IMG/VR virus record: IMGVR_UViG_3300035670_008177
Coordinates: 1 to 27,753 of that record
Source of the DNA: a virus
Strand: one strand, 5' to 3'
Length of the DNA stretch: 27,753 nt
Of the stretch, positions 4,663 through 27,753 are shown in pieces. Under the pieces are notes generated by a model. The model was not told the origin of the DNA and made no database searches. It saw only the letters and a list, made by a program, of their open reading frames with translations. How positions within the stretch are numbered: the stretch's first letter is position 1; the number at the start of each line of letters is the position of its first letter. The position numbers and the translations under genes are program-made.

Positions 4663-5261
4663 TGCCGATATCCCATTCCCATAAGTTAGTTTTTATTCAT
4701 ATTCCCAAAACTGCGGGAACTGCAATCACCGAATCTTCGGGAATAAAGTTTGATTCTTTTAATGGACATTTTACTTGGCAAAATACCCAAATGGAACTGG
4801 GTCCAAAGTGGGATGAATATTTTAAGTTTACCGTAGTCAGGAACCCTTGGGATAGGGTAGTCTCAAACTACAAATACGCTCGTATGCTAAAGAGTTATTG
4901 GCACTCAAATGACGGTACCACAAAATACTCCAAACACGTCGACTATGACGTTTGCTCAAAACTTTCATTTGATGATTGTGTAAAACTTTTACAAAAAAAT
5001 CCCAACAATTTAAGACATCAAGGATGGAAACCACAATATCCTTATGTTTGTGATTCTGATAAAAATATTGTTGTTGATAAAGTTTTTGATTACACAGATT
5101 TGGATGGTGATGAGTTTAAAAAAATCATTCCAAAAATGGATAGAATTAACGTGTCTCAAGGTGAAAAAGAATCATACAAAGATTACTATAACGACGAGTT
5201 AATTGATATTGTTTCTGAGATTTACAAAGAAGATATAAAAATATTTAAATTCAAATATTAA
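4662..5261 (+). CDS. PAPS-dependent sulfotransferase (carbohydrate sulfotransferase-like)
   Basis: A 199-aa protein with both cofactor signatures of the Sulfotransfer_2 type. FIHIPKTAGT at residues about 11-20 is the 5'-phosphosulfate loop with Lys16, and VVRNPWDRVVSNY at about 58-70 is the 3'-phosphate site with Arg60 and Ser68. Such enzymes move sulfate from PAPS to a hydroxyl, often on a sugar. A basic RHQGWKPQYPYV stretch in the middle fits the hexuronic-acid/acceptor region of the family. Position directly after a glycosyltransferase and before a methyltransferase points to glycan decoration. PAPS must come from the host, because no ATP sulfurylase or APS kinase gene is visible here. The protein is shorter than eukaryotic homologues, which carry a membrane anchor. 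Confidence 0.87.
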   Translation: MPISHSHKLVFIHIPKTAGTAITESSGIKFDSFNGHFTWQNTQMELGPKWDEYFKFTVVRNPWDRVVSNYKYARMLKSYWHSNDGTTKYSKHVDYDVCSKLSFDDCVKLLQKNPNNLRHQGWKPQYPYVCDSDKNIVVDKVFDYTDLDGDEFKKIIPKMDRINVSQGEKESYKDYYNDELIDIVSEIYKEDIKIFKFKY

Positions 5262-5262
5262 A

Positions 5263-5823
5263 ATGAACGAAGATTACATTAAAAGCGATGGATGGTTTGA
5301 TTACCAAGACTTTTACACAAAAATGGCAAATAAACCCTTCAAAGTTTATGTGGAACTCGGAACGTGGAAAGGATATTCAGTCGCATTTTTAACCCAAAAA
5401 ATACTTGAGACAGGTAAAGATGATTTCAAAGTATACGGTATAGATTTATTTGAGGATTCATCGATTCACCTAAAAAATAATAACTCTCACTTATCTGACC
5501 AGATGCCTTACATCTATCAGATTTATAATGAAGTTCTCACAAGATATAATGTCCGTGATCATATAACCGACATTAAAGGATATTCATGGGAGACATCCGA
5601 ACACTTCGAGGATGAATCTGTGGATTTTATCTTCATTGATGCCGATCACGCATATGAGTCTGTTAAGAAAGATATTCAGGCTTGGTGGCCTAAACTTAAA
5701 AAGGGGGGTATCATGTCAGGTCACGATTATTTCAATCCGTTTGGTGTAAAACAAGCAGTTGATGAAATTTTCTCTAATGTTCAAATCTCATCTGACAGGA
5801 TTTGGTACATTGAGAAGGAGTAA
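5263..5823 (+). CDS. SAM-dependent methyltransferase (class I, Methyltransf_24-like)
   Basis: A 186-aa class I methyltransferase. Motif I is VYVELGTWKGYS (residues about 28-39), motif II is the KVYGIDLFE strand ending in the ribose-binding Asp, and motif IV is VDFIFIDADHAYESVKKDI, typical of the Methyltransf_24 group that includes glycan and natural-product O-methyltransferases. The GGIMSGHDY strand follows. It starts one base after the sulfotransferase stop with no clear Shine-Dalgarno, only an A-rich run. It closes the first glycan stretch and is followed by an intergenic hairpin. The substrate is unknown; O-methylation of a sugar is suggested by neighbours only. Confidence 0.85.
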   Translation: MNEDYIKSDGWFDYQDFYTKMANKPFKVYVELGTWKGYSVAFLTQKILETGKDDFKVYGIDLFEDSSIHLKNNNSHLSDQMPYIYQIYNEVLTRYNVRDHITDIKGYSWETSEHFEDESVDFIFIDADHAYESVKKDIQAWWPKLKKGGIMSGHDYFNPFGVKQAVDEIFSNVQISSDRIWYIEKE

Positions 5824-5879: not shown

Positions 5880-6017
5880 ATGGATAACATAGAAAATAAC
5901 GTTATCACTGATAAGGTGTACATTTACGAAAGTCCTGACGGAGGTAAAACAGTTTACCGAAGAGAGTTCGGACAACCTCACAATACTCGTGAATTAATAT
6001 CTAACACCCAAGAATGA
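5880..6017 (+). CDS. Small unrecognised protein (45 aa) upstream of phoH
   Basis: An open frame of 45 codons begins at ATG 5880 and ends in TGA 6015-6017, which overlaps the phoH ATG at 6014 (ATGA) as most real neighbours here do. The product starts MDNIENNV and has a central segment VYIYESPDGGKTVYRREFG that looks like a beta-hairpin with a DGGKT turn. It has no membrane segment. It is preceded by the inverted repeat and a TATTTATT motif, with an A-rich leader (ACAAACAAAT) and no Shine-Dalgarno. Coupling to phoH and good coding character support a real gene. I do not recognise a function. Confidence 0.7.
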   Translation: MDNIENNVITDKVYIYESPDGGKTVYRREFGQPHNTRELISNTQE

Positions 6018-6745
6018 AAAAAAGGTCTATACCAACAGCAACTCCTGTACCAACTCAGAACGAAAGTTATAGGACAAAAAAACAGGCAATCTGTTCAATT
6101 TTAAAAAGAAAAACTAAAGAAAAATTTTTATCTCAGAGTCAAAGGGAATATTACGAAAAACTTGAAAAGGGAGAGATCGTAGTTTGTTCAGGACCTGCAG
6201 GTGTTGGTAAAAGTTATATCGCAATGAAAGCTGCGATTGATTTATTATCAGATCCGAACAATGCGTATGAAAAATTGATTATCGTTCGACCTGCTGTTGA
6301 AGCAGAGGAAAAGTTAGGTTCATTACCTGGTAATGTTGAGGAAAAACTCGACCCTTACATTTTCCCATCTTATTATTTGTTGAACAAAATTATTGGTAAA
6401 GAAACCAGAGAAAAACTCAAAGAAATGGAAGTCATTGAGGTTTTTGCCCTGGCATATATGAGAGGTATGAACATAGACAACTCGATTCTGATTTTTGAAG
6501 AAGCACAAAACTCTACACCCAATCAGATGAAACTTCTGTTAACCAGAATCGGGTTTAACTCTAAGTTTTTTATCTCAGGAGACTTAGAACAGACTGACAG
6601 ATATAAAGATAAAACACAAAGTGGTCTTTGGGATGCCATCCATAGATTCAAATCCATGGAAAGTATTTTAACCCATGAGTTTAAAGACTCAGATGTTGTT
6701 AGAAATCCATTGATCACTAAAATTTTACAAAAATACGAGGATTAA
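6014..6745 (+). CDS. phoH: PhoH-like ATPase
   Basis: A 243-aa P-loop ATPase of the PhoH family. Walker A is GPAGVGKS (residues 60-67), followed by the family hallmark LIIVRPAVEAEEKLGSLPGN, Walker B in LIFEEAQNS, and the sensor-like FISGDLEQTD. The preceding SQSQREYYEKLEKGEIV helix corresponds to the usual Q-motif-like region. PhoH proteins are common in T4-like and marine phages; their RNA-related helicase or nuclease-linked role is not settled. The first 35 residues are basic and probably flexible. It overlaps the 45-aa gene (ATGA) and abuts the HAD-like gene (TAATG). Confidence 0.93.
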   Translation: MKKRSIPTATPVPTQNESYRTKKQAICSILKRKTKEKFLSQSQREYYEKLEKGEIVVCSGPAGVGKSYIAMKAAIDLLSDPNNAYEKLIIVRPAVEAEEKLGSLPGNVEEKLDPYIFPSYYLLNKIIGKETREKLKEMEVIEVFALAYMRGMNIDNSILIFEEAQNSTPNQMKLLLTRIGFNSKFFISGDLEQTDRYKDKTQSGLWDAIHRFKSMESILTHEFKDSDVVRNPLITKILQKYED

Positions 6746-7607: not shown

Positions 7608-8663
7608 ATGGATCAAGAACAAATTGAAAAGGTAAAACTTTCTATTCAAAACTTAGAAGACAAAACTTCGAGAGTTTATTTTTTTGTACACGATACTAAG
7701 GGCAACGCCAAAGCCTCTATCAAGTACATTTATGACATGGCATTAACACTTCGTAAGAATGGTTATAATTCGATCATTCTCCACGAAAAGAAAGACTATA
7801 TGGGTGTTGCGTCTTGGTTAGGAGAAGAGTACATGACTGGAATTCCACACCAAGTTATTGAAGGTGAAAATATTCAAATTGCTCCCGAGGACTTTTTGGT
7901 TGTTCCTGAAATATTTGGATTTATGATGGACCAAGTAAAAAATCTTCCATGTGGAAAGATTGTTCTTACACAAGCCTACGCACACATGTTGGAAACGCTT
8001 CAACCAGGTCAAAACTGGAGTCAGTTCGGATTCTTTAAATGTATTACCACCACAGATGTTCAAAAGAAACAAATCGAAAAGGTTATGAGAAATAACTCAT
8101 TTGATATCTGTGAACCATATATTTCAGATGTTTTCAAAAAACAAGAAAAACCACCAATGCCAATCATCGGTGTTCACTCAAGAGAACAAGAAGATACGAT
8201 TAATCTTATCAAAACATTTTATCTTAGATTTCCACAATATCGTTGGTTCACCTTCCGTGACTTGAGAGGTTTAAGTCATGAACAGTTCGCGAACGCGGTT
8301 TCTGAATGCATGTTGACTGTTTGGATTGACAGTGAAAGTGGTTATGGTACTTTCCCATTGGAATCTATGAAATCGGGAGTCCCTGTGATGGGAATCGCAC
8401 CTGAGTTGGTTCCATACTGGATGAATGAAGAGAACGGGATATGGATCAAAGATCGTATTTTACTTCCTGAACTTTTAGGTGATTGGATTCAAAATTGGTT
8501 AGAGGACAACATAGCACCTTCAATTTATGAAAATATGGAGAAAACGATTTCATCTCTACCTTCAAGAGATGACTTCGAAAATAAAGTTTTAAGTCTTTTT
8601 GAGGAATATCTCACAATCAGAGCAAACTCAATGAAAGATCAAATTTCAAAATTTATTGATTAA
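7608..8663 (+). CDS. Glycosyltransferase, GT-B fold (GT4-like)
   Basis: A 351-aa protein resembling divergent GT-B glycosyltransferases. The N-terminal half has RVYFFVHDTKGNAKASIKYI, placed like the first glycine-rich loop and helix of a GT4 enzyme, then alternating strands. The C-terminal half contains PIIGVHSREQEDTINLIKTF and VWIDSESGYGTFPLESMKSG, the latter matching the E-x-FG-x-x-x-x-E/A-M donor-site motif of retaining GT-B enzymes, followed by VPVMGIAPELVPYW. No membrane segment is seen. It begins one base after the previous stop and is followed by a GT2 gene, so it opens the second glycosyltransferase pair of the block. Confidence 0.75.
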   Translation: MDQEQIEKVKLSIQNLEDKTSRVYFFVHDTKGNAKASIKYIYDMALTLRKNGYNSIILHEKKDYMGVASWLGEEYMTGIPHQVIEGENIQIAPEDFLVVPEIFGFMMDQVKNLPCGKIVLTQAYAHMLETLQPGQNWSQFGFFKCITTTDVQKKQIEKVMRNNSFDICEPYISDVFKKQEKPPMPIIGVHSREQEDTINLIKTFYLRFPQYRWFTFRDLRGLSHEQFANAVSECMLTVWIDSESGYGTFPLESMKSGVPVMGIAPELVPYWMNEENGIWIKDRILLPELLGDWIQNWLEDNIAPSIYENMEKTISSLPSRDDFENKVLSLFEEYLTIRANSMKDQISKFID

Positions 8664-8664
8664 T

Positions 8665-9471
8665 ATGGAAAACATTTTAGACGTAACAGTAGTATTACCA
8701 ATCAAGTCAGCTTTATCTAAAGATTTTGCCGAGTTGTTCGGAAACGCAGTGAATTCACTCAAAAATCAAAAAACTCAAATTTCAGAGTTATTAGTTGTTG
8801 CAACACAAGAAGAACATCTTCAGGATTTTCTAAAATCATTTGATTTTAGGGATCTTAAACATCAGGTTTTAACTTGGGAAGGTTCACCTAATTTTGCAGA
8901 TCAAGTAGATTTTGGTGTTAAGAGTGCTAAATCAAAGTGGGTTTCTATTTTGGAATTTGACGATGAATACTCATCTATTTGGTTTGACAACGTTTCAAAG
9001 TATGAAAAATATTATACCGATGTGGAGGTTTTCTTACCCATTGTAGTCGATACAAATGAAAAAGGTGTGTTCGCAGGTTTCACAAATGAAGCGGTGTTTG
9101 CAGCAAACTTTGCACAAGAAATGGGTTTCTTAACCAATGACATTTTACAAGATTACCAAAACTTCCAAACATCAGGTATGGTTTTCAAAAAATCAGTTTA
9201 TGAAAACTTCGGAGGGTTTAAAGCAAGTATCAAGTTAACATTTGTGTATGAGTTATTCCTACGTTGGACATATAACTCCGTTAAAATAATGAGTATTCCT
9301 CGTATTGGATACAAACACGCAAATATGAGAGAAGGTTCATTGTTTTGGAACTACAAAAATGGTGAAGAAAAGATGTTGGATGAGGAAGTTAAGTTTTGGG
9401 TTCAAACCGCAAAAAAAGAATACTTCTTCAATGAGGACAGATCCATAAAGTATGAGTCAAATAATGACTAA
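8665..9471 (+). CDS. Family 2 glycosyltransferase (divergent)
   Basis: A 268-aa GT-A type protein. TVVLPIKSAL near the start is the first strand, and WVSILEFDDEYSSIWF supplies a DxD-like Asp-Asp pair near residue 95. FQTSGMVFKKSVYENFGGFK matches the conserved GT2 segment in which a residue pair after the central sheet contacts the acceptor. I chose ATG 8665, directly after the upstream TAA at 8661-8663. A TTG at 8656 would add three residues but is less likely. The stop overlaps the sigma-factor start (TAATG). Acceptor and donor are unknown. Confidence 0.75.
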   Translation: MENILDVTVVLPIKSALSKDFAELFGNAVNSLKNQKTQISELLVVATQEEHLQDFLKSFDFRDLKHQVLTWEGSPNFADQVDFGVKSAKSKWVSILEFDDEYSSIWFDNVSKYEKYYTDVEVFLPIVVDTNEKGVFAGFTNEAVFAANFAQEMGFLTNDILQDYQNFQTSGMVFKKSVYENFGGFKASIKLTFVYELFLRWTYNSVKIMSIPRIGYKHANMREGSLFWNYKNGEEKMLDEEVKFWVQTAKKEYFFNEDRSIKYESNND

Positions 9472-10217
9472 TGTCCGAGACACTCACGGCAATAACCGAA
9501 GATGTCACCGCTAAGAAAAGGGGTAGAAAGGCAACGCAGACAAATTATTTCGATGTTAAGGAAGAAGAGGCGGTAAGAGAATATCTTTTAGCCGACACTT
9601 TTGAAGAAAAAAATCGTATATACAATGAGCACCTGCGTGGTCCTTTGGATAAAATGATTTCTTCAATTATTCGTCGTTATAAACTGTATAGAAAAGATAT
9701 GGATTTTCGTGAAATTCACACGGATACCCATTCTTTTTTGATGACAAAGGTAGATAAGTTTAAGCCTTCAAAAAACAAGAAGGCTTATTCTTATTTTGGT
9801 ACAATCTGTAAGAATTATCTTATGGGTCAAATCATCAAAGATCAAAAGGATACCAATAGAAAAGTTTCATATGAAGACATTTCAAGTTCTTTAGAGGAAA
9901 GACCCGACATGATGTATACTATCGATAATGACACTACAGAAACTGAAGTTATTATCCAACAATATTTAGATGATTTGAAGTCTTTTATTGATAATGAAAA
10001 TCTTTCGGATAGTGAAGAAAAACTCGGATTTGCATTGATAGATTTATTCGAAAACTATGAAACGATATTCCCTGGCAGTGACAACAACAAGTTTAATAAA
10101 AATATCATACTATTGTCATTAAGGGAAATGACAAATTTATCCACTAAAGAGATCAGAAACTCAATGAAAAAGTTCAAAAAACTATATTTGGTGGTTCAAA
10201 CAAGAATGAAGGATTAA
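9471..10217 (+). CDS. Late-transcription sigma factor, T4 gp55-like
   Basis: A 248-aa protein resembling the gp55 family, which replaces host sigma on host RNA polymerase to read late promoters. The signature is the segment around residues 98-125, VDKFKPSKNKKAYSYFGTI followed by CKNYLMGQIIK; it corresponds to the sigma region 2 helix that binds the beta-prime coiled coil and melts the -10 element. Basic N-terminal residues (AKKRGRKATQ) and an acidic middle follow. The C-terminal region carries ALIDLFENYETIF and a final basic helix, with no obvious sliding-clamp motif that I can point to. It closes the metabolic block just before the virion genes, and TATTTAT octamers begin to appear upstream of virion genes right after it. 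Confidence 0.75.
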   Translation: MSETLTAITEDVTAKKRGRKATQTNYFDVKEEEAVREYLLADTFEEKNRIYNEHLRGPLDKMISSIIRRYKLYRKDMDFREIHTDTHSFLMTKVDKFKPSKNKKAYSYFGTICKNYLMGQIIKDQKDTNRKVSYEDISSSLEERPDMMYTIDNDTTETEVIIQQYLDDLKSFIDNENLSDSEEKLGFALIDLFENYETIFPGSDNNKFNKNIILLSLREMTNLSTKEIRNSMKKFKKLYLVVQTRMKD

Positions 10218-16562: not shown

Positions 16563-16964
16563 ATGAATAAACCTTACCACTACCTACGTAGGTCCATCCA
16601 AAAGATGATGATCTACATTTACAGAACCGTACAGTCTGATTACGATAAATCAGTTTACGAACGAGATTGTACTTCAATTTGTAAGAAACTTATCAATCAG
16701 AAAGAAACTACATTACTCTTAACCCCCAAGACAGGTAAACGTTACATCAAAAGTGAAGACTCAAATGTGTTCATTATTTTGGATAGTCATAGAGTTAAGA
16801 TTATTAATCACGTTTACGCCTATGACGTTCATTTCACAGAAAAAAGCTGGAATCAACTGATTGACATTTTTGATACTGAAGTAGAGAAACGTAGAGAAGA
16901 GTTCGAAATTCAAATCACTTCAAACATCAAAAGTTCACTTAAAAAAATCCTTTCAGATATCTAA
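16563..16964 (+). CDS. Unknown protein (133 aa), probably helical/beta mixed
   Basis: I do not recognise this protein. It begins with a basic helix (RRSIQKMMIYIYRTV), has a central beta segment with TTLLLTPKTGKRYIK and NVFIILDSHRVKIINHVYAY, and ends in a long amphipathic helix around VEKRREEFEIQITSNIK. Proteins of this plan occur as hypothetical proteins in phages. No membrane segment or metal motif is evident. It follows a host-type promoter-like sequence and overlaps the next gene's start by one base (TAATG), so the two are probably co-expressed. Confidence 0.6.
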   Translation: MNKPYHYLRRSIQKMMIYIYRTVQSDYDKSVYERDCTSICKKLINQKETTLLLTPKTGKRYIKSEDSNVFIILDSHRVKIINHVYAYDVHFTEKSWNQLIDIFDTEVEKRREEFEIQITSNIKSSLKKILSDI

Positions 16965-17329
16965 TGAAAAATATATACGACAACCTTTTTTGGTCGGGAG
17001 TTATTTTACTCACATTCGTTTTAAGTTTTTTGGTTTTAATCGGGATAAATGTTTATCCCTACATTTCAAATAAATTGACTGATAAAACCGTGACTGTCAC
17101 ACAATCAGAAACTAAACATAGAGGTGAGAATACTCCCCTAACACCACCAACCCCAAAAGATGAACCTAAAGAAACTGTTATAGTAAAAGAGAATCCTAAA
17201 CCAATTCAACAGGTAACTAAATCAGTCACCGTACATGATACCGCTCATGATACCGCTCATGATACCGCTCATGATACCGTTAAAATAAAATCTGAAGAAA
17301 AAGATACTACTTCCTTAAAGATTCCTTAA
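16964..17329 (+). CDS. Single-pass membrane protein with HDTA tandem repeat
   Basis: A 121-aa protein with one hydrophobic membrane segment (WSGVILLTFVLSFLVLIGI, residues about 10-28). A polar Pro/Lys/Glu-rich stretch follows, and then HDTAHDTAHDTAHDTV (residues about 91-106) encoded by four 12-bp units. With the short N-terminus inside, the C-terminal part would lie in the periplasm. It could be a lysis-associated or superinfection-related envelope protein; no lipobox or holin signature is seen, so this is only a guess. Its 3' end overlaps the opposite-strand DUF5872-like gene by 23 nt. Confidence 0.6.
   Translation: MKNIYDNLFWSGVILLTFVLSFLVLIGINVYPYISNKLTDKTVTVTQSETKHRGENTPLTPPTPKDEPKETVIVKENPKPIQQVTKSVTVHDTAHDTAHDTAHDTVKIKSEEKDTTSLKIP
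17042..17059. repeat. 18-bp interrupted palindrome inside the membrane-protein gene
   Basis: GGGATAAA, TG, TTTATCCC: 8-bp perfect arms with a 2-nt centre. It lies just downstream of the codons for the membrane segment. It could be a binding site or coincidence within the codons for GINVYP. Confidence 0.5.
17234..17281 (+). repeat. Four tandem 12-bp units encoding HDTA
   Basis: The unit CATGATACCGCT occurs at 17234, 17246, 17258 and (with CGTT end) 17270. Each unit is in frame and encodes His-Asp-Thr-Ala; the last ends in Val. Near-identity at DNA level suggests recent slippage expansion. Confidence 0.95.
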
Positions 17330-18212: not shown

Positions 18213-20018
18213 TTATCTCAATTCTCTCAAGTCGAATGTTCTAACACCATCAACTGTGATTCTACCGTAGAATCTGTTGTTCACCATCTTCTTAGCGTAT
18301 CTAGTCATGATACCCTTGATTGGGGTGAAGTTGAATGGGTTGTACATCGTTGGAGTTAACTGAAGAGGTACATACGGAGCGTAAATGTAACCTGTATCAA
18401 GTAACGAAGTACCTTTGTGTCCTAACAACACCTGGTTTGCAGGGAAGTAAGGGTCACGGTAAACTTGATATCTACCAGCAAGTGTACCTACTCTTTCGAT
18501 ACCCATGTTGTATTGGTCTTGCTCAGGAGCTGCGTTTGAAACGTGGAAGTACTCCAAGTCATCAAAGATTGCAGAAACCTCAGAAGAAACAACGATCCAG
18601 TTAGCACCACCTCTTAAGGTTGACTTGTGGATTTGAGCCGAGATTTGGTTGATTGCTGTGATAAGAGTTTGGTTCCAGTCCTTCTGAGTGTAAGGTACTG
18701 CGTTTGATCCAAGTCTCTTCCATCCGTTGTAGTCCCAACGAAGATCCCAAGCAGCACCTTTTCTAAGGTCTCTAAGGATTTCACGGTCGATTTCAGCCGC
18801 AACTTGCTCAGACAATAAAGCTGTTAATTCAGCTTCAGCGTCGATGTTGTGGAATGCAGCAACGTCCTGAGCCATTTCAGGTGACCATTGAGCTCTAAGT
18901 TTTCTTTCAGTAACCGAAACAGTCACAGACTGAAGGTCGAAAGAAACTTCACCGATCTTATCTTCAAACTCAAGATTCTTGTACAATCTGTAAGTTGCAA
19001 CAAATGCGTTGTTAGCAGCTGTAGATGAAGAGAATGGAGTACCAATGTATCCGTCGATTGAGTTAGCACCAACAGTTGCAGGTGTAGTTAAATCAACCTC
19101 AAGGTAGATCTGTCCAGCCGCGTTACAAACGTCGTCATACTTACCACCATCAGTTAAACTGTTAGGGTAAACTGCAGTTGCCTGTGAACCGTATTGAACA
19201 ATACCTTTACCGTATCTTTGAGTAACTACTCTGAAGAGGTAGTTGTTTGAAGTGTTTGCAGATGTGTAAACGTTACCTGCAGCGCCTCTGATTGTTAAAC
19301 CAGCCAAGAAAGTTTCGGTATCCATTGGGTTACCATCAGGACCGATAAGTTTACCAGCTCCGTCAGAAGCGAAACCTGACATGATCAACAATACTTTAGT
19401 TGTTGCTGAGTTGTAACCGTAAGCCGCTGCTCCTAAGTTAGTACCATTCCAAGTTGCAGTAACTACTGAAGTTGTAGGTGCAGTGATTGCACTCCACTCA
19501 CCTCTTGAGTAGTCGAAAAGACCTGGAGGATCCAAAGCAGCTTCGTTACCTTCGTAGAATCTATCGTAAAGGTCTTTCTGAGTGTTTACGTCGTAACCAC
19601 TATCAGGAGTTTGACCCGCAGCTGCGTTAGGTGAACCGTAAGGTGCGTAGTGTTGTTTATTAGTTGCTGTATCAACTCTGTAGTCCTGAATCAAAGGGAC
19701 AAAGTAAAACAACTTACCGATTGGAAGGTTCATCGCTTGAACAGAAACGATGTCGTTAGCCAAAAGCTTAGAGAATACTCTTCTTACGATTGGGAAAACA
19801 ACAGTTTCGAATGAACCTGAGTCAGCTGTAGTTGAAGCTTCGTTTATCAAATATGAAGCTTGGTTTTCGTACAACTGAGCTACGTTTTCTTTAAGGTGAC
19901 CATTAAGACCCTCGAGGAATCCTAATTTGTCCCATTTGTTGATTGTATCTTCCTTGATAACTTTAAGGTGCTTAAGACCGATGTTACCAACAAGACCACT
20001 TTCTAATAATGCTCCCAT
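18213..20018 (-). CDS. Major capsid protein, T4 gp23-like
   Basis: A 601-aa protein of the gp23 family, which forms the hexamers of the head with an HK97 fold. The first 60 residues (MGALLESGLVGNIGLKHLKV onward) form the scaffold-binding propeptide, and YLINE|AST at residues 56-63 is the expected prohead protease site, cleaving after Glu60. The conserved block FPIVRRVFSKLLANDIVSVQ, then AMNLPIGKLFYF, matches gp23. Conserved C-terminal parts include SPEMAQDVAAFHNIDAEAEL and the closing NPFNFTPIKGIMTRYAKKM. The leader is AAACTAAATTTAAAA, A-rich with no Shine-Dalgarno. It follows the scaffold gene with a 29-nt gap that lacks the TATTTAT octamer and ends at a strong terminator. Confidence 0.95.
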   Translation of the reverse strand: MGALLESGLVGNIGLKHLKVIKEDTINKWDKLGFLEGLNGHLKENVAQLYENQASYLINEASTTADSGSFETVVFPIVRRVFSKLLANDIVSVQAMNLPIGKLFYFVPLIQDYRVDTATNKQHYAPYGSPNAAAGQTPDSGYDVNTQKDLYDRFYEGNEAALDPPGLFDYSRGEWSAITAPTTSVVTATWNGTNLGAAAYGYNSATTKVLLIMSGFASDGAGKLIGPDGNPMDTETFLAGLTIRGAAGNVYTSANTSNNYLFRVVTQRYGKGIVQYGSQATAVYPNSLTDGGKYDDVCNAAGQIYLEVDLTTPATVGANSIDGYIGTPFSSSTAANNAFVATYRLYKNLEFEDKIGEVSFDLQSVTVSVTERKLRAQWSPEMAQDVAAFHNIDAEAELTALLSEQVAAEIDREILRDLRKGAAWDLRWDYNGWKRLGSNAVPYTQKDWNQTLITAINQISAQIHKSTLRGGANWIVVSSEVSAIFDDLEYFHVSNAAPEQDQYNMGIERVGTLAGRYQVYRDPYFPANQVLLGHKGTSLLDTGYIYAPYVPLQLTPTMYNPFNFTPIKGIMTRYAKKMVNNRFYGRITVDGVRTFDLRELR

Positions 20019-20047
20019 TTTTAAATTTAGTTTTAGAGATTTTTATT

Positions 20048-21613
20048 TTAAATTTTTGACATTAGATCCTTAATTCTTAAGAACTGAGGATTTTCGTATG
20101 TCTTAGACTCAATGAGGTTTTGTGATGATCCTGATGAAACTGAATTATTAACAGTTCTTTGAACACTTTCATTAATGCTCTTAGTATCAACAGTATCCAA
20201 TTCCTCTTTGATTGTCTTATAGAGATTCTTTGACTCTTTCATACTTTCTACAGAATCAAATCTTCTCAAGATATTTATTTTTTCTTTTTTGGTAGTGGAG
20301 TGTTCAGTGAACAATCTTGTTGCATATGCGAGATTAGAGTTGAATACCGCAACTTCGTTAAGTTTTTCTCTGAAAACGTTTAACGCTTTTCTGTATTCTT
20401 CATTTTTCTCTCTCAACATTTTGAGTTCTGCATCTACAGATTCTACTTTAACACCATTATCACTGTAAACATAATTTCTATTGTTAGTGATACCTTTTCT
20501 TAAACCTCTACCTTCTTTTGATCCTGAACCGTAAGTACGTGCAGCTTCTTTAGTTTCAGTTTTTTCGTAATCTTTTTTACCAGGATGGGTCTTAGACTTA
20601 TCACCTTTATTTCCTCCGAACTTTCCTTCGTAGTCTTTATAGTGTCCATCTTTTCCTTCACCAGCCTTCTTTTCAACTCCGTCTACTTTCTTACGTCTGT
20701 ATTCGTCCTTGTTAGAACCCCAGTCTTTTTCACCTTCCTTAAACTCAAACTTAGCTTTACCTGTACCCATAGTTTTGGGACCCTCTTTCTTGTGGTCATC
20801 GAATCCTTGTTTTGGTAAAGTTTTACCGTACTTAAACTTAGGACTACCCATGCCAACGCCTTTAGGTTTTACAGTCATTTTAGCTTCAGATAGATCATAG
20901 TCTTCGGTGTTCATTTCGTCTTCTTCCATCATGTCGTCTTCCTCCATCATGTCATCTTCCTCCATCATATCACCTTCTTCCATGTCATCTTCTTCCGACA
21001 TTTCGATTTCATAAACAACATCGTCACCCTCTTCCATTTCGTCCATCTCTTCAGAGTAATCTCCTTCAAGATTTAACGAAGCTAGAACAGCGTCAAGGTC
21101 AGCGTCTTCGTCTTCCATTTGCATGTCGTCCATTTCTTGCTCACCCATCTCCATTTCAATATCATCTTGTTCGCCTTCGTTCATTTTTACAATGTACTCG
21201 ACGTCTTCATCACTATCAGTAATGTGAACATTATCACCATCCTTTTGAACAATGATACCATCCTCTTCACCCATAGCTTTGAATATTTTCAAGATATCCT
21301 CATCAGATGCGTTTGTTAAATCGACAGTTTCTTCCTCGTCGTCAAATTCCATGTCCATATCCATGTCCATTTCCATGTCGTCGTCAGAAACTTCATCGTT
21401 ATCAACTTCCATATCGATGTCACCCATCTCCATATCAGTATCCATTTCAATCTCTTCATCGTCAGCTTGCTCACTGAGAGATTCTTTTACTAATTGACTG
21501 ATTTCTTCCTTCATAGTAGAAGCAAGTATTCCTTTTGCGTTTTCGGCAATAACTTCTTCAACATTTTTCATTTGAATAAGTGCCTCTTCAACTAAATTCT
21601 TAGTTTCTTGCAT
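20048..21613 (-). CDS. Prohead core/scaffold protein, gp22 position, with hyperacidic repeats
   Basis: A 521-aa protein, about twice T4 gp22 (269 aa). Residues 1-50 are helical (LVEEALIQMKNVEEVIAEN). Residues about 50-250 are extremely rich in Asp, Glu and Met, including MEMDMDMDMEF and a three-fold EEDDMM repeat. Residues about 250-375 change to a Lys/Gly-rich, probably disordered stretch (KFKYGKTLPKQGFDDHKKEG). The C-terminal 140 residues are a coiled coil with LKMLREKNEEYRKALNVFRE and VFNSNLAYATRLFTEH, the segment typical of phage core scaffold proteins. Position between protease and capsid genes, the acidic nature and the helical C-terminus support scaffold. It is expected to be degraded by the gp21-like protease during maturation. 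Confidence 0.8.
   Translation of the reverse strand: MQETKNLVEEALIQMKNVEEVIAENAKGILASTMKEEISQLVKESLSEQADDEEIEMDTDMEMGDIDMEVDNDEVSDDDMEMDMDMDMEFDDEEETVDLTNASDEDILKIFKAMGEEDGIIVQKDGDNVHITDSDEDVEYIVKMNEGEQDDIEMEMGEQEMDDMQMEDEDADLDAVLASLNLEGDYSEEMDEMEEGDDVVYEIEMSEEDDMEEGDMMEEDDMMEEDDMMEEDEMNTEDYDLSEAKMTVKPKGVGMGSPKFKYGKTLPKQGFDDHKKEGPKTMGTGKAKFEFKEGEKDWGSNKDEYRRKKVDGVEKKAGEGKDGHYKDYEGKFGGNKGDKSKTHPGKKDYEKTETKEAARTYGSGSKEGRGLRKGITNNRNYVYSDNGVKVESVDAELKMLREKNEEYRKALNVFREKLNEVAVFNSNLAYATRLFTEHSTTKKEKINILRRFDSVESMKESKNLYKTIKEELDTVDTKSINESVQRTVNNSVSSGSSQNLIESKTYENPQFLRIKDLMSKI
20921..20997 (-). repeat. 18-bp tandem repeat encoding EEDDMM
   Basis: On the + strand the unit CATCATGTCRTCTTCCTC starts at 20927, 20945 and, with changes, 20963; a shortened fourth copy starts at 20981. 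It encodes the acidic Met-containing repeat of the scaffold protein. Confidence 0.9.
21349..21379 (-). repeat. 6-bp repeat encoding Met-Asp/Glu dipeptides
   Basis: CCATGT/CCATAT/CCATTT hexamers repeat five times on the + strand and encode alternating Met and acidic residues (MEMDMDMDMEF) in the scaffold protein. Confidence 0.85.
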
Positions 21614-21634
21614 AAATTGTTATTTATTTTACCT

Positions 21635-21642
21635 AATAAATA
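21635..21642 (-). promoter_or_regulatory. Putative late promoter TATTTATT for the scaffold-capsid transcript
   Basis: On the - strand CACTATTTATTAGG ends 21 nt before ATG 21613 and begins just after a tandem terminator. This is what is expected for the start of a separate scaffold-capsid transcript. Confidence 0.6.
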
Positions 21643-21653
21643 GTGCAAGAAAT

Positions 21654-21704
21654 AAAAAAAGTTCATTCCCGATGTTCTAATAATAAAAAACACCGAAAAT
21701 GAAC
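21654..21704 (-). terminator. Intrinsic terminator, 16-bp stem
   Basis: As - strand RNA, bases 21704-21689 pair with 21676-21661 along all 16 positions, with three G-U pairs and a 12-nt loop. A run of seven U residues follows (21660-21654). On the + strand the three wobble positions become A-C mismatches, so the structure is made for the - strand transcript. Confidence 0.88.
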
Positions 21705-21705
21705 C

Positions 21706-21732
21706 AAAAAAAAAGTGGTCAAATTTGACCAC
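21706..21732 (-). terminator. Intrinsic terminator with perfect 18-bp palindrome
   Basis: GTGGTCAAATTTGACCAC (21715-21732) is a perfect palindrome, followed on the - strand by nine T residues (21714-21706). It lies 7 nt past the DUF4494-like gene stop and is the first of two tandem terminators. Confidence 0.88.
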
Positions 21733-21739
21733 CTTAAAG

Positions 21740-21949
21740 TTATTCGATTACCTCATCGATTTTACTTTCACCAACAGAGAAGATTCTCCAATCGTGTTGA
21801 AACCCTTGGTACTTCTCAGTTACCTTTGCTTCCACATCTGTCACAGAATAACCCTTGACGAGTTTCTCCTCTCGGATTTTTTTTAATCTACCCGAATTTT
21901 CATCAGGAAGTTCATAAACAACTTTAGCTACAAAATATTTCTCATCCAT
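21740..21949 (-). CDS. Small DUF4494-like protein
   Basis: A 69-aa protein, MDEKYFVAKVVYELPDENSG onward, with LKKIREEKLVKGYSVTDVEA and a closing beta/helix WRIFSVGESKIDEVIE. The order of features (a Lys-containing first strand, an EE-x-LV-x-x-x-S-x-T-x-x-EA segment, then a final strand) resembles DUF4494, a small family I associate with Bacteroidetes and their phages; its function is not known. The gene starts 11 nt after the protease stop and is followed by two tandem terminators, so it ends the protease transcript. T4 has no gene at this place. Confidence 0.6.
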   Translation of the reverse strand: MDEKYFVAKVVYELPDENSGRLKKIREEKLVKGYSVTDVEAKVTEKYQGFQHDWRIFSVGESKIDEVIE

Positions 21950-21960
21950 GTTTTTAAGAT

Positions 21961-22677
21961 TTAACGTTTTAAATAATCGGTTAATTTTTTCATTAAATCA
22001 ACTGACTTACCCATTCCTGAGTCAGAAATTTTTTGTTTATTTTCTTCTTCCAAGTTTTCTTCGTACTTAGCCCTATCTTCAGGTTGTCCAAATAGATATG
22101 CACCAGGTGTTGATGGTGAAGATACCAAATCAAAACAAATCAACTCAAAGTCATCTTGTACTTCATTTTGTTCCCCAACTTTCTTTAATGAACCAACACC
22201 TCTTGAAGATACCCCCATGGTAACTCCTTGTCTCATTAAGTTAGCTGCAATATCTCCTTTAGTGGATACTATACCTCTTTCGTGAAAACCTGGTGAAGTT
22301 AAAAGTTTTAACTTACCCATCAAAATATGACCATCCCACCAAATGTCAGTTATTATATGGGAAACTCGGTCTAAGTCGATCAATGATGATTCTGGATGAT
22401 TCAACTCAGATGTTGACAAACCCTTTTTGATCATCGTTTTATATTTGTCCGCTTCTCTTTTTAAAATCCTTTCAGGATACACACGACCATTTCTATTTGG
22501 AACCCCATACTTTTGTAGAACGGCATAAAATTCAAATGGATTTCTATAATCTACTTCTTTTTGTTCTTTTAGAACATCGAGATTTAATGGGTCCTGTGGA
22601 GATACAAATCCCGCATCCATTTCAATTAATATTCCTTTACCTGTCTGACCGGCACCCAAAATACTATAATCTTTCAT
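21961..22677 (-). CDS. Prohead maturation protease, T4 gp21-like
   Basis: A 238-aa serine protease of the T4 gp21 family that cuts scaffold, capsid and internal proteins after (L/I)xE during head maturation. The conserved VPNRNGRVYPERILKREADK region opens the domain. SELNHPESSLIDLDRVSHII carries the catalytic His, and TMGVSSRGVGSL carries the catalytic Ser, as in herpes- and T4-type prohead proteases. It has an acidic Lys-rich tail likely removed by self-cleavage. The gene lies between an unknown gene and a DUF4494-like gene; its start is preceded by AAAAGG and a TATTTATC octamer. Confidence 0.92.
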   Translation of the reverse strand: MKDYSILGAGQTGKGILIEMDAGFVSPQDPLNLDVLKEQKEVDYRNPFEFYAVLQKYGVPNRNGRVYPERILKREADKYKTMIKKGLSTSELNHPESSLIDLDRVSHIITDIWWDGHILMGKLKLLTSPGFHERGIVSTKGDIAANLMRQGVTMGVSSRGVGSLKKVGEQNEVQDDFELICFDLVSSPSTPGAYLFGQPEDRAKYEENLEEENKQKISDSGMGKSVDLMKKLTDYLKR

Positions 22678-22692
22678 ATATACCTTTTAAAA

Positions 22693-22700
22693 GATAAATA
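22693..22700 (-). promoter_or_regulatory. Putative late promoter TATTTATC for the protease gene
   Basis: On the - strand AATATTTATCTTTT ends 15 nt before ATG 22677 in a 28-nt gap. The last base deviates from the TATTTATT form. Confidence 0.5.
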
Positions 22701-22705
22701 TTATG

Positions 22706-23158
22706 TTAGTCCATAACTTCTTCAACTTCCGAGTTTTTGGTTGGGTAAAAAAGAAAATACTTGTTTTTCAACACACAATCTTTGTATATTTGTCGTATTA
22801 CCATTCTGATAGAGTCTTTTATTTCATTTGATTTGAAATCCATCTCATTGTTTAAAAATAGATTTACCTCGAGATTCATAAAAGATTTTTTATTTATTTG
22901 AATACCGCTTGTTCTCAAATCTAAGTCCACAATAAAGTTGGTTTTATAATAGTTTGTATTCAAACTTTCAAGTACGGAGTGTTTCACTTCTCTTGATAGA
23001 TTTGCGACAATACGATCCCAATTTTCATATTCATCTTTTGGTTGTACCCAACTTTGAATGTTCAAATAGAGTGACTTCAAATTTTTTGAATCTACAGTGC
23101 CATAACTCGTTTTTAGTGATTGGTATTGATTAATTTTTACAGTTTTACCTTTTTTCAT
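22706..23158 (-). CDS. Unknown head-module protein (150 aa)
   Basis: A 150-aa protein of mixed alpha/beta content that I do not recognise. It has YLNIQSWVQPKDEYENWDRI near residue 30-50, a helix REVKHSVLESLNTNYYKTN, then beta strands FIVDLDLRTSGIQINKKSF, and a C-terminal helix IRMVIRQIYKDCVLKNKY. It lies between portal and protease, where T4 encodes the small core proteins 67 and 68, but no acidic core-like composition supports equivalence. A 5-bp hairpin (CAGAT/ATCTG, 23163-23177) sits right before the start codon and might influence translation. Confidence 0.65.
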   Translation of the reverse strand: MKKGKTVKINQYQSLKTSYGTVDSKNLKSLYLNIQSWVQPKDEYENWDRIVANLSREVKHSVLESLNTNYYKTNFIVDLDLRTSGIQINKKSFMNLEVNLFLNNEMDFKSNEIKDSIRMVIRQIYKDCVLKNKYFLFYPTKNSEVEEVMD

Positions 23159-23192
23159 ATATCAGATTTTTCATCTGTTTATTTTTATATGT

Positions 23193-23226
23193 CAAAAATA
23201 TAAGGGTAAATTATTGATACACCAAA
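23193..23226 (-). promoter_or_regulatory. Weak Bacteroidetes-like promoter candidate for the 23158 gene
   Basis: On the - strand TTTG (23226-23223) and TATTTTTG (23200-23193) match the TTTG/TAnnTTTG pattern, but the 22-nt spacing is longer than usual. It lies in the divergent gap shared with the bS21 gene. Confidence 0.25.
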
Positions 23227-23228
23227 CA

Positions 23229-23236
23229 TATTTATA
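23229..23236 (+). promoter_or_regulatory. Putative late promoter TATTTATA for the bS21 gene
   Basis: ACATATTTATAAAAC ends only 4 nt before ATG 23241. If used as a -10 element, the transcript would begin at or next to the ATG, a leaderless mRNA. Confidence 0.4.
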
Positions 23237-23240
23237 AAAC

Positions 23241-23426
23241 ATGTTAGTAGTTGAAGTTAATTCCAACATTGAAAAGGCTTTAAAAACCTTAAAGGGAAAA
23301 GTTATTAAAACTAAGCAGAATAAAATTCTCAATCAAAATAGAGAATTTGTAAAAAAATCAGTAAATAAAAGATTGAAAAAATCTAAAGCGATTTACATAC
23401 AAAGGTTTAAGAACCAAGAAGAATAG
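23241..23426 (+). CDS. rpsU: Phage-encoded ribosomal protein bS21
   Basis: A 61-aa very basic protein. The N-terminus MLVVEVNSNIEKALKTLKGK matches the bS21 start (hydrophobic strand, then IE-x-AL-x-x-x-K), and the C-terminal part SVNKRLKKSKAIYIQRFK with an NQEE end resembles Bacteroidetes bS21. bS21 sits on the 30S platform near the 3' end of 16S rRNA and takes part in start-site selection; phage copies are known from environmental phages. The gene is the only + strand gene within the - strand head module, overlaps the end of the convergent 23407 gene by 20 nt, and shares an 82-nt divergent gap with the 23158 gene. It has no Shine-Dalgarno. The family call is strong for its size. Confidence 0.85.
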   Translation: MLVVEVNSNIEKALKTLKGKVIKTKQNKILNQNREFVKKSVNKRLKKSKAIYIQRFKNQEE

Positions 23427-24114
23427 AATCTTTGAGTTGTTTTAAACGAACGTAGTTAATCTGATCAAAACTTTCTGATTGAATTTTTCCAATAGTCTCA
23501 ACTATTTTAGATTTTATTTCTTCATCAGTGTTAGATTCTGCTAAAGTTTCAAGTTGTCCTATTGTAGTCTCTTTCAAGTTATTATATTCGTTTTCTAAAT
23601 CCTCAGACTTAGAAGCTAAAACATGAAACACTTCTTTTTTGATATTCTCATCAAGACTCTCAATATAGTTTTGTACAGTTTGATTAGCGATTGAAACCAT
23701 TGATTTGAAAGGTAATACAACCTTAGTCTCATTAACTTTTGGCTTTGATGTAAGAATACTTAATATGTTTTTCTTAGACTGTAATCTCTCGGAAATATTG
23801 ATGTTATTAAGATATACTAAGTTGTCTAAATCAATGTATAAATTTTCAGAAACCTCACCCTTTTTTGGGAGATTAGTCTTTTCTAAAATAACTCTAATCA
23901 AAGATAGACCTTCTTCTAAATAATCTTTAGCTTCAGTTTCATTCAAACCTTTTGGTGTTGTCAAATCATCATATAAACTATAAAGTTTTGAAAAATCTTT
24001 ATTATTCAAAACATTGTGTTTGAACTCTTTTAGAGTTTGCTTAAAGTTCGAAGGGTTCGAATATGATTCTAGTAGATTCTTTTCTAGAATGGATTTGATC
24101 TGTCCAAAGGTCAT
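23407..24114 (-). CDS. Unknown helical head-module protein (235 aa)
   Basis: A 235-aa, mostly helical acidic protein located directly after the portal gene, where T4 has its small core genes. The N-terminus MTFGQIKSILEKNLLES is an amphipathic helix ending in an LLE|S site that fits the prohead protease, so the protein may be an internal head or core protein delivered with the scaffold. The body has helices such as KEVFHVLASKSEDLENEYNN and IVETIGKIQSESFDQINYV. No known domain is recognised. It has its own TATTTATT motif upstream and an A-rich leader without Shine-Dalgarno. Its 3' end overlaps the convergent bS21 gene. Confidence 0.7.
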   Translation of the reverse strand: MTFGQIKSILEKNLLESYSNPSNFKQTLKEFKHNVLNNKDFSKLYSLYDDLTTPKGLNETEAKDYLEEGLSLIRVILEKTNLPKKGEVSENLYIDLDNLVYLNNINISERLQSKKNILSILTSKPKVNETKVVLPFKSMVSIANQTVQNYIESLDENIKKEVFHVLASKSEDLENEYNNLKETTIGQLETLAESNTDEEIKSKIVETIGKIQSESFDQINYVRLKQLKDSILLGS

Positions 24115-24137
24115 TTTGAGGTATTGTTTAATTCAAT

Positions 24138-24145
24138 AATAAATA
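24138..24145 (-). promoter_or_regulatory. Putative late promoter TATTTATT for the 24114 gene
   Basis: On the - strand GTAATATTTATTATTG ends 23 nt before ATG 24114, right after the portal stop codon. The gap is only 31 nt. Confidence 0.55.
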
Positions 24146-25996
24146 TTACGAATTAAGCAACTTTTTCAATTCTTCTTCAATTTGACCCAAACTTTGTTGT
24201 CCTACACCTAAATCAAGGTATTTTGAACTGAAGGCATCATTCTCAACGAGTATATTCATATCTCTCATAGAAACAGATTCAGGTGTCACTTCACCACCTG
24301 GTTCAGGTGCACCTCCCTCAGCTTCAGCACCACCTAATTCAGGTCCCGTTGGAGCTCCCAACTCGGCACCTAAACCACCAAGTTCAGCACCTGCAGGTTC
24401 AGTTGTTTCACCAGGTGCCGCTGGTGGTGTTTCACCAGGTTTAGTACCATAAAGTTTGTCCACAGTGTCAAAGACACCTGTTTTAGATATGACTGTTGCG
24501 GTATTCTTAAGTTCTTCACCGATAGCCTTTTCCATTCTTTGTTGTAGGAGATCTGTTCTGATTTCCTCATCTGACCAATTAAATAGGTGTTTTTTGGCCC
24601 ATGTAGATGAAGTTGCTTGAATACCATTACCAGGATCAGAAACCATATCTTTGTAGAGTAACATTTTTTCTTTCCAAATATCAACCTTAAGTAAGTCGGC
24701 TTGAGTAGATGGATTAGTTAGTCCAAGTGTGAAGTTAGCAATTTCTTCTTCGAATCCGAGTAAGAAAAGATGCACAATAGCGATCTTATTGAGCTCTTGC
24801 AACATAGATTTTTGAATCCTGTTGATAGTTCTAGCAAAACGAATATCCATTAAAGCCAACGTCTTACCGTCACCAACCACTTCTTCAAATCCTAAAAATG
24901 CTTTAGGTATTCTAAGTGCGGTAACAAGTTTCTTTTGGATATACTCAATATCTGCAATCTCAGACAAGTTTTGTGCTCCAGCTAAGGTTTCAATTGGAGA
25001 TGGTTGTGCGGGATCTCTAACAGGGATAAAATAATCTTGATCAACCGCCATTTGGTTGAATCTCATGTCAACATTCCCCGTTTTAGCATCAACAATCTGT
25101 TGTCTCTTAAACTTATTTGCCACACGTTGTACATATGCTTCCACATCGTCATCATTCATGTTTCCAACATAAACTTTGAATACTCTTCTTTCAGGGGCTC
25201 TCGATGTTCTATAGATCAACATCGCATCCTCTGAAAGTAATAGTTGTTTCCAAATACGACGAGATTTTTCTAACATTGAAGTACCGTAGGGTAATTTTCT
25301 ATCATCACCCAATAATCTGAAGTGACCAATTTCCCATGGTTGGAATTCCATATTCTGAGCTTTCCAAACAAACTTAAGACCCTTATTTTCGGATCCTGTT
25401 GGTGGTTGTCCACTCATATTAAAGTTATGAGACTGTAGTCCTGTTTCATATCTTTCAACTTCTATGTTAGGAAGTTGTTGACACCCGATAACACCCTTTT
25501 CAGGATCTAATCTAAGATAAATAAAGTTATCACCATACTTACAAGTGTTTCTTGTCCACATTGGAAGGTTGGTATTGATATCCAAATTATTATTGAATAA
25601 ATCGGCTAATACGGATTTTATTCTTTTAGACTCTGAATAAATCTGTAATATAAATCCATCCTCATTAGGTGTGGTAGATTCTTCCGCATAGATGTCTAAG
25701 GCTGCCGAAATCTCAGGTGTATATTCCATAGACTCGTAATCATAGTATGCTGCGAGTCTGTTAGGTTCGTAATAAACTGCTTGGTTATAAAGGTTACTTT
25801 CAACCTTAGCAAACTGATTCGCTAAATAGGTTGATTGTTGGGCTTGTAGTTTTTCTCTTTCAAATTCAGCACGATCCTGAGTTCTTAAAATTTCTTTTTT
25901 GTCGAACTTATAGGTCGGGAAATCCTGATTTAAAAGTGCGTCAGGTCCCAAAGCTCTTGAGAGCCTTTGCCAAACAGTATTATTTTGATTACTCAT
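24146..25996 (-). CDS. Portal vertex protein, T4 gp20-like
   Basis: A 616-aa portal protein, forming the dodecameric ring through which DNA enters the head. Hallmarks of gp20 are YDYESMEYTPEISAALDIYA, TRNTCKYGDNFIYLRL, WEIGHFRLLGDDRKLPYGTS, then LLSEDAMLIYRTSRAPERRV and the clip/stem part KLVTALRIPKAFLGFEEVVG with DGKTLALMDIRFARTINRIQ. After about residue 525 there is a Gly/Ala/Pro/Glu-rich linker (GGLGAELGAPTGPELGGAEA) before a short conserved helix end. T4 gp20 is 524 aa, so the extra length is this tail. The start is at ATG 25996 with no Shine-Dalgarno, and a TATTTATA motif lies upstream. Confidence 0.95.
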   Translation of the reverse strand: MSNQNNTVWQRLSRALGPDALLNQDFPTYKFDKKEILRTQDRAEFEREKLQAQQSTYLANQFAKVESNLYNQAVYYEPNRLAAYYDYESMEYTPEISAALDIYAEESTTPNEDGFILQIYSESKRIKSVLADLFNNNLDINTNLPMWTRNTCKYGDNFIYLRLDPEKGVIGCQQLPNIEVERYETGLQSHNFNMSGQPPTGSENKGLKFVWKAQNMEFQPWEIGHFRLLGDDRKLPYGTSMLEKSRRIWKQLLLSEDAMLIYRTSRAPERRVFKVYVGNMNDDDVEAYVQRVANKFKRQQIVDAKTGNVDMRFNQMAVDQDYFIPVRDPAQPSPIETLAGAQNLSEIADIEYIQKKLVTALRIPKAFLGFEEVVGDGKTLALMDIRFARTINRIQKSMLQELNKIAIVHLFLLGFEEEIANFTLGLTNPSTQADLLKVDIWKEKMLLYKDMVSDPGNGIQATSSTWAKKHLFNWSDEEIRTDLLQQRMEKAIGEELKNTATVISKTGVFDTVDKLYGTKPGETPPAAPGETTEPAGAELGGLGAELGAPTGPELGGAEAEGGAPEPGGEVTPESVSMRDMNILVENDAFSSKYLDLGVGQQSLGQIEEELKKLLNS

Positions 25997-26027
25997 CTTC
26001 GTTAGAAATTAACAACACAATCGTTAA

Positions 26028-26035
26028 TATAAATA
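26028..26035 (-). promoter_or_regulatory. Putative late promoter TATTTATA for the portal gene
   Basis: On the - strand GTTAGTATTTATATTAACG directly follows the terminase stop codon and ends 31 nt before ATG 25996. Confidence 0.55.
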
Positions 26036-27753
26036 CTAACGGGCACCAAATAACCAACCATATTTCATATAATCCTCACGAGTTACATCGTGCATTTGAT
26101 TTCTACCTCTACCAGGTTGGTTAAATGCTGGTACTTGTGGATTAAAAAATTGTGATGGTTCTTTATTTTCGTTAACAAATGTGGACCAAGAATCTATCAT
26201 CGCCTTGGTATGGTTTGTGACCTTTTGAAGGGATGGGAATGCCGCCTCTGCAACATACAAGGCCATTGATATAGACATAATACAATCATCATGATGACCT
26301 TTTTGGTGATCAGGTCTTCCATTTATATAAACAAAAGTACCCATCTCATTATGTAAACGATTAGATCTAATCTTAAACTCATGCCTCATTGCCTCCTCAA
26401 AAGAAGCAATAATTTGAACACGTTTGTTATTAAAGTTGATACCTGGAATTTTGTCTTTTACTTTAGGATCGTATTTCCATTTGTTTGTTAAATCAACACC
26501 ATCATAGAAGAAGTTTTCATACCCCAACTCCTGTAATCTACGAGCAGTTGCTACACCCATTCCACCGGTTAAATCAATAACACAAAGAGCACTGTACATA
26601 GTTCCCCATTTATACGCAACATCCGCCAAAATATCAGGTGGAATTTTACCGACATATTCCAAGACCTGTTCTCTTGTATCGAAATCAATAATTTCAATAC
26701 ATGAAAAATCTTCAGAATCTCCCCTTGATACGTCGACACCCATAACATATTTGTGACCATTCTCAGGCTCTTTCCATAACCAAAGTTGATTACCCATAAG
26801 TTTGGCTTGAGGGTCTCTAATGTCATTCTTCAATATGTCTTGAAGCATTTGAGAGTCGAATACATTGTCACCTGAACCCAAAAAGTTACATTCCAATTCC
26901 TGTGCAACTTTTCTCCTGTCATATTTGAGTTTTTTAACCATTGCCTCAAACCAACTTGAACATGGTTTATAACCATCTTCAATGTATTTGTGTAAAGTTT
27001 CTAAACTTCTCTCATGACGGTTTTCTTCGGATAGGTCAATAATGGCATCACTTGGATATTCTTCTTTGTTAAGAAGAAAATGAACCAAATCGTTGGTTTT
27101 CACCATATATAAGTCTTTTGTGTAACGAGGATCTCGGTACCAAAACATTTCGGTGATTTTGAAATCGTTCATCCCTCTAAGAGCTTGATCATAGATTTCA
27201 TAATAAATGGGATCAAATCCGTTGGGGGTTGATATAACAACTACTTTACCACCCGTAGATAGAGATGCCATACAAGCAGCCCAGAAGTCACTGTCTGCCT
27301 CAATAAACGCAGCCTCATCAAATATCAATGTAGTGGGGGTATATCCACGAAGTGCGTCTCTTGATGTTGCAACCGCTTTTACCTCACACCCATTAGTAAG
27401 TTTAAAGTGTCTTGCGGAGTTTTTTTCAGGTGCAAATCCTATACCAACCCATTTAGGCCACTGTTCGGTAAATCCTCTAATCTTGTTTGCAAATTCAACT
27501 GATGTATCAAGTTTGTTTGCAATTATAAGGATTTTTTCAGGTTTGTTCTTGTTAGCAAATGCTAACCTTTTACTTGCCCATGCCGCAGTTACAGTTGACA
27601 CACCCGCCTGACGATACTTTAACGCGATGTTTTCGTTATAGTTTTCATAATCCTCAACCAAATTTACTTGGTCTTGGAATAACTCTAAAGGGACATACCT
27701 TGATACTGTATTGTCGTAAGTTTGTAGATATGTTTTAAGAGCATAAGGAGTGC
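26036..27753 (-). CDS. Terminase large subunit, T4 gp17-like, start beyond the window
   Basis: The frame stays open through 27753, so the start lies outside; the TTG at 27661 is an internal codon. The product packages DNA by ATP hydrolysis and cuts concatemers. Seen here are an adenine-binding LFQDQ region, a Walker A variant KYRQAGVST, Walker B TLIFDEAAF, and the coupling motif VVISTPNGFD. The RNase H-type nuclease follows, with acidic residues in VMGVDVSRGDSED, LCVIDLTGGMG and GHHDDCIMS. The C-terminus reads SQFFNPQVPAFNQPGRGRNQ, then a polar end. In T4 the tail sheath and tube genes follow gp17; here the portal gene follows after a 39-nt gap. Confidence 0.95.
   Translation of the reverse strand, partial: TPYALKTYLQTYDNTVSRYVPLELFQDQVNLVEDYENYNENIALKYRQAGVSTVTAAWASKRLAFANKNKPEKILIIANKLDTSVEFANKIRGFTEQWPKWVGIGFAPEKNSARHFKLTNGCEVKAVATSRDALRGYTPTTLIFDEAAFIEADSDFWAACMASLSTGGKVVVISTPNGFDPIYYEIYDQALRGMNDFKITEMFWYRDPRYTKDLYMVKTNDLVHFLLNKEEYPSDAIIDLSEENRHERSLETLHKYIEDGYKPCSSWFEAMVKKLKYDRRKVAQELECNFLGSGDNVFDSQMLQDILKNDIRDPQAKLMGNQLWLWKEPENGHKYVMGVDVSRGDSEDFSCIEIIDFDTREQVLEYVGKIPPDILADVAYKWGTMYSALCVIDLTGGMGVATARRLQELGYENFFYDGVDLTNKWKYDPKVKDKIPGINFNNKRVQIIASFEEAMRHEFKIRSNRLHNEMGTFVYINGRPDHQKGHHDDCIMSISMALYVAEAAFPSLQKVTNHTKAMIDSWSTFVNENKEPSQFFNPQVPAFNQPGRGRNQMHDVTREDYMKYGWLFGAR

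Follow-up and report, generated by a model that had tools for sequence, protein, structure and literature searches.

The window, as the whole stretch of DNA analysed here is called, is a viral contig of 27,753 bases and represents a fragment of a genome. At positions 23241-23426, on the plus strand, it carries an open reading frame with an ATG start and a product of 61 aa, which was assigned to ribosomal protein S21 (bS21) through Pfam PF01165, matches to bS21 chains in the PDB and an alignment of 143 phage with 42 host bS21 sequences. The product matched PF01165 (Ribosomal_S21) significantly, with an E-value of 3.9e-8 and a score of 33.3 bits against a gathering cut-off of 27, and the match was also obtained from the DNA; residues 4-54 were aligned with profile positions 4-54 of 55. 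The top PDB sequence matches were bS21 chains, namely 9i5v (E 3e-6) followed by that of F. johnsoniae, 7jil (E 1e-5). The identity proposed by the initial annotation is thereby borne out, and the Bacteroidetes-like affinity that it had suggested agrees with the F. johnsoniae chain standing among the best PDB matches and with the alignment to host bS21.

The protein is nevertheless a divergent member of its family, and by the NCBIfam model TIGR00030 it is not an equivalog. Its score of 19.3 bits lies under the curated cut-off of 28.95, as do those of two other phage copies (16.9 and 24.4, so that the phage proteins span about 17-24 bits), whereas the host control, F. johnsoniae bS21, reached 54.7. 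When genome contigs were searched, the F. johnsoniae protein retrieved host relatives and the phage protein retrieved none. In the isolate collection only one close bS21 relative was found, a 735-kb uncultured phage that is listed twice. The median dN/dS of phage bS21 was 0.12, which denotes purifying selection, and the values for the two flanking genes were 0.09 (HP150) and 0.17 (CN235).

The head module and the placement of bS21

From 18213 to 27661 every other substantial open reading frame lies on the minus strand, and bS21 is therefore the sole plus-strand gene of a T4-like head module, just as had been noted for the interval of 18.2-27.7 kb. The minus-strand genes comprise the major capsid protein gp23 (18213-20018; Pfam Gp23, 2.2e-73), an acidic scaffold-like protein (20048-21613), a protein matching the C-terminal part of DUF4494 (21740-21949; Pfam, 2.1e-8) that belongs to the conserved module, a gp21-like prohead protease of the Peptidase_S77 family (21961-22677; Pfam, 5e-24), the divergent neighbour HP150 (22706-23158), the convergent neighbour CN235 (23407-24114), the T4-like portal gp20 (24146-25996; Portal_T4, 1.9e-74) and the large subunit of a T4-like terminase, TerL, listed with a TTG start (26036-27661; Terminase_6N, 1.5e-13). 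The scaffold-like protein, which had no family match, was named by its conserved position and its composition; it contains long acidic, methionine-rich repeat runs (MEEDDMMEEDDMMEED).

The initial annotation had placed bS21 between the portal and protease genes, which holds for the region and not for the direct neighbours, since CN235 and HP150 intervene. The 20-nt overlap that it described with a convergent gene was recovered: bS21 and CN235 meet tail to tail, and the shared stretch includes both stop codons. The placement, on the other hand, can no longer be regarded as unusual and was dropped as a novelty. An orientation opposite to the TerL, portal, protease and capsid genes is the rule for bS21 in Bacteroidetes phages (Chen et al., 2022; PMC9723584), and the same slot and orientation were found in 189 of 195 related viral loci, these being the loci that hold both portal and protease, with the outgroup immuto excluded. 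All 80 close viral relatives carry bS21 in this placement, and none of the loci examined has it in the orientation of the head genes. Some of the 195 loci represent one contig twice; after removal of identical portals, 148 distinct loci remained, 142 of them with bS21.

The phages of clades a-e described by Chen et al. (PMC9723584) resemble the window in several respects: bS21 runs opposite to TerL, portal, prohead protease and major capsid protein, it is flanked by two hypothetical genes, it is Bacteroidota-like with an aromatic residue at the Tyr54 position, and the structural genes are T4-like. Their genomes measure 293-331 kb, compared with a fragment of 27.7 kb here. The gene is real and rightly named; since its kind and its placement are already published, it is an unremarkable find in phages of this group. 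What is new beside that work is the absence of the Shine-Dalgarno (SD) signal of host rpsU, a TATTTNT element near the ATG, the repeated loss of bS21 with its convergent neighbour kept, and an overlap of stop codons in every distinct bS21-bearing locus measured. The SD contrast and the pattern of loss constitute the added value over the published analysis.

Repeated loss of bS21 and the two flanking genes

CN235 occupies the position of bS21_CN, the convergent neighbour whose expression and trees are similar to those of bS21 (PMC9723584). By AF2 it is predicted to be all-helical (pTM 0.50), and HP150 to be an alpha/beta protein (pTM 0.84). Fold comparison of both returned matches to uncharacterised phage proteins only; HP150 had no match in the PDB at E<=0.001 and one strong match elsewhere, to an uncharacterised protein of Myoviridae sp. 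ctPuP5.

Six loci (L241, L263, L283, L309, L329 and L335) retain CN235 and HP150 without bS21 between them. On the portal tree, supported branches force six changes, one of which concerns the distant outgroup immuto, so that the six loci occupy at least five independent places. No bS21 was found elsewhere on the 45-48 kb contigs of L241 and L263, which, like those of the other four loci, are fragments. The absence of bS21 from 6 of the 195 loci indicates that the gene is dispensable in some backgrounds, and the six loci that keep CN235 show that CN235 does not depend on bS21; judged by its position, CN235 is probably a head-assembly gene. The cultured Flavobacterium phage immuto (MW353176) shares the T4-like order TerL-portal-protease-MCP, with a portal only 36.5% identical to that of the window, and its interval between portal and protease holds no homologue of bS21, CN235 or HP150.

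Each of the 142 distinct bS21-bearing loci has the stop codons of bS21 and CN235 within an overlap of 4-26 nt, most often 4 or 9 nt, which leaves no space for a terminator between the two genes. A strong hairpin followed by a T-run (-11 to -13 kcal/mol) is present after CN235, where bS21 would be, in four of the six loci that lack bS21. These hairpins, which resemble intrinsic terminators, were seen in L241, L263, L283 and L329; the positions noted for the bS21-less arrangement are 6830-6969 in L241 and 8566-8704 in L263. The constant overlap, together with the similar expression and trees of the published pair, would suit an arrangement in which bS21 and CN235 act or are regulated jointly through their overlapping 3' ends, be it as the bS21_CN idea has it or by antisense effects. 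Such coupling is improbable given that CN235 persists without bS21 after at least five independent losses and that a terminator hairpin replaces bS21 in four of the six loci. The published idea of a partner gene is accordingly weakened by these losses with neighbours kept, and bS21_CN as an obligate partner with it.

Upstream elements and the missing Shine-Dalgarno sequence

A promoter-like element, TATTTATA, lies at 23229-23236 on the plus strand and ends 4 nt before the ATG of bS21, with no SD in between. The heptamer TATTTAT is widespread in this phage group: among the intergenic upstream regions of eight contigs it occurs in the sense direction in 93 of 239, against 11.2 expected (8-fold), and its reverse complement is enriched about 2.8-fold. 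Its position peaks at 11-13 and at 21-24 nt upstream of the ATG. Among distinct sequences it precedes CN235 in 123 of 123 cases, the protease in 123 of 125 and the portal in 109 of 127, and the form TATTTNT precedes bS21 in 93 of 126, with a mode at -12. In the window, TATTTAT was also observed in the upstream regions at 14522, 10262, 21613, 22677, 24114 and 25996, as well as in the eight related contigs.

TATTTAT looks like a phage promoter element, perhaps a late one. Nothing relevant was retrieved from the literature on TATTTAT as a late promoter of Flavobacterium phages, and the assignment of a possible sigma factor at 9471-10217, checked as a fit to the late-promoter idea, found no support. 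Transcription of bS21 would probably start at TATTTATA, just 5' of the ATG, and yield a near-leaderless mRNA. If TATTTNT serves as a promoter -10 element, many such mRNAs, that of bS21 included, would be nearly leaderless. A second element, GTCAAAAA (23191-23198, in the divergent intergenic region), was set aside as a promoter element of bS21: it persists in three relatives without bS21 (L241, L263 and L329) and for this reason probably belongs to the divergent gene.

The location in the head module could also suggest a structural or injection role, with bS21 packaged into the virion or working away from the ribosome; Chen et al. mention packaging as one option (PMC9723584). Since the gene has its own strand and its own promoter-like element, and the protein is retained as a plain bS21, this role is very unlikely.

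In F. johnsoniae, rpsU is autoregulated: ribosomes without bS21, in which the anti-Shine-Dalgarno (anti-SD) is free, favour the rpsU mRNA with its extended SD (McNutt et al., 2023; PMC9976891). Such ribosomes initiate poorly on mRNAs that lack an SD, and most genes of these hosts are also without one (PMC9976891). Host and phage genes were compared here by one method, the ViennaRNA duplex between the 3' tail of 16S rRNA and the last 25 nt upstream of the ATG. With a single generic Bacteroidota sequence as the tail, which may differ from that of the individual hosts of these phages, an extended SD was found in 79 of 79 Flavobacterium rpsU genes (-18.6 to -24.7 kcal/mol), whereas the 126 distinct phage bS21 upstream regions had a median of -1.8 and a best value of -8.8 kcal/mol, none being below -10. 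The window itself gave -2.4 kcal/mol, and by a criterion of < -13 kcal/mol an extended SD is absent from the window bS21 and from all 126 phage upstream regions. The gap between host and phage likely far exceeds what differences in the tail sequence would make. Over 699 phage genes, SD pairing did not rise above the shuffled expectation (mean -3.02 against -2.91). The contrast was not found stated in the literature searched, the coverage of which was partial. As most host genes also lack an SD, its absence from the phage gene could be a default and not a selected escape.

Conserved residues and a proposed replacement of host bS21

The phage proteins belong to the same family as the products of rpsU in F. 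johnsoniae and its relatives (PMC9976891), and share with them the conserved C-terminal helix and the Tyr54 position. In the window this position is held by Tyr52, which thus supplies the aromatic residue that marks Bacteroidota bS21 and stacks on A1534 of the anti-SD. The position is aromatic in all 143 distinct phage sequences (Y in 130, H in 10 and F in 3), a feature already described for phage bS21 (Chen et al., 2022; PMC9723584). Six further residues, K17, K20, K22, K40, S42 and R46, are invariant in the 143 phage proteins. Host and phage proteins differ in residues 18-29. Across 143 phage and 42 host sequences, residues 18-28 separate the two sharply, with a signature close to LK[SG]KVIKT[KR]Q in the phages and YKRKFDKTGT in Flavobacterium.

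The initial annotation had proposed that the phage protein could redirect the choice of start sites. In its strong form, bS21 would expose or reshape the anti-SD and let SD-bearing phage mRNAs win. Two points favour this: bS21 lies at the anti-SD, and the helix that faces the mRNA has diverged in phages, as seen in the alignment and in PMC9723584. However, phage genes carry no SD above chance, the 699 genes behaving much as their shuffles do, and all 143 phage proteins keep the aromatic residue that blocks the anti-SD. Unmasking of the anti-SD is therefore unlikely, and strong redirection is disfavoured, with little probability left to it.

The simplest model that fits is a replacement bS21 that hides the anti-SD and whose mRNA is not subject to the feedback. 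The reading preferred here, to which about an even chance is given, holds that the Bacteroidota-type phage bS21 replaces the host copy on the 30S subunit late in infection and outside the feedback on rpsU. The phage protein would most likely displace host bS21 on 30S subunits at that stage; the late timing, also suggested by the initial annotation, agrees with published transcript data for the bS21 of relatives (Chen et al., PMC9723584). The fixed slot and the purifying selection count in favour of this reading, and the dispensability of the gene in some backgrounds counts against it. Through the C-terminal helix and aromatic position that the protein retains, the anti-SD would stay hidden, by analogy with F. 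johnsoniae, and the signature LK[SG]KVIKT[KR]Q in the N-terminal helix, in place of YKRKFDKTGT, would adjust initiation to phage mRNAs that have no SD. The phage mRNA lacks the extended SD that ties the translation of rpsU to bS21-free ribosomes, so replete ribosomes might go on making phage bS21 while host rpsU would be shut off by its own feedback. That the protein is incorporated, shifts mRNA preference and silences rpsU through feedback is inferred. A more specific version, in which a phage bS21 that hides the anti-SD and comes from an SD-less, possibly leaderless mRNA saturates the ribosomes, silences host rpsU by way of its own autoregulation and yields phage-specific ribosomes insensitive to bS21 shortage, is offered more tentatively.

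The main rival to replacement with altered preference is plain resupply, by which 30S subunits would be kept replete with bS21 once the host ceases to express its genes or its bS21 is broken down, and mRNA preference would not change. The conserved ribosome-binding C-terminus and the purifying selection on phage bS21 are consistent with it, and so is the weakness of bS21-less ribosomes on SD-less mRNAs (PMC9976891), the sole kind of mRNA in these phages. Plain resupply would, however, need no near-invariant signature unlike that of the host, such as the one seen in the 143 phage sequences, and it is rated as rather unlikely, though ahead of the other alternatives.

A comparison can be drawn with the bS21 of Pelagibacter phage HTVC008M, also encoded by an aquatic myovirus (Mizuno et al., 2019; PMC6375957). 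That protein is of the Proteobacterial type and enters E. coli ribosomes. In E. coli, ribosomes with the Pelagibacter phage protein showed an activity of about 5% (PMC6375957); phage bS21 proteins may thus act as inhibitors and not as retuning factors.

The SD contrast makes a loose idea of ribosome hijacking testable with simple reporters in a tractable host. If escape from feedback is true, expression of phage bS21 in F. johnsoniae should lower an rpsU'-gfp reporter and leave a phage-bS21'-gfp reporter steady. In this way, phage ribosomal proteins are brought together with a known example of ribosome specialisation in bacteria, and the missing host start signal suggests how a phage could take over ribosomes.

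Elsewhere in the window, a cluster of genes that by eye resemble those for glycosyltransferases, a sulfotransferase-like protein and a methyltransferase lies at 2303-5823 and 7608-9471. A PhoH-like gene (6014-6745) adjoins this cluster and is the only assignment confirmed there. Finally, the open reading frame at 16964-17329 contains a short HDTA tandem repeat in its C-terminal part (HDTAHDTAHDTAHDT).
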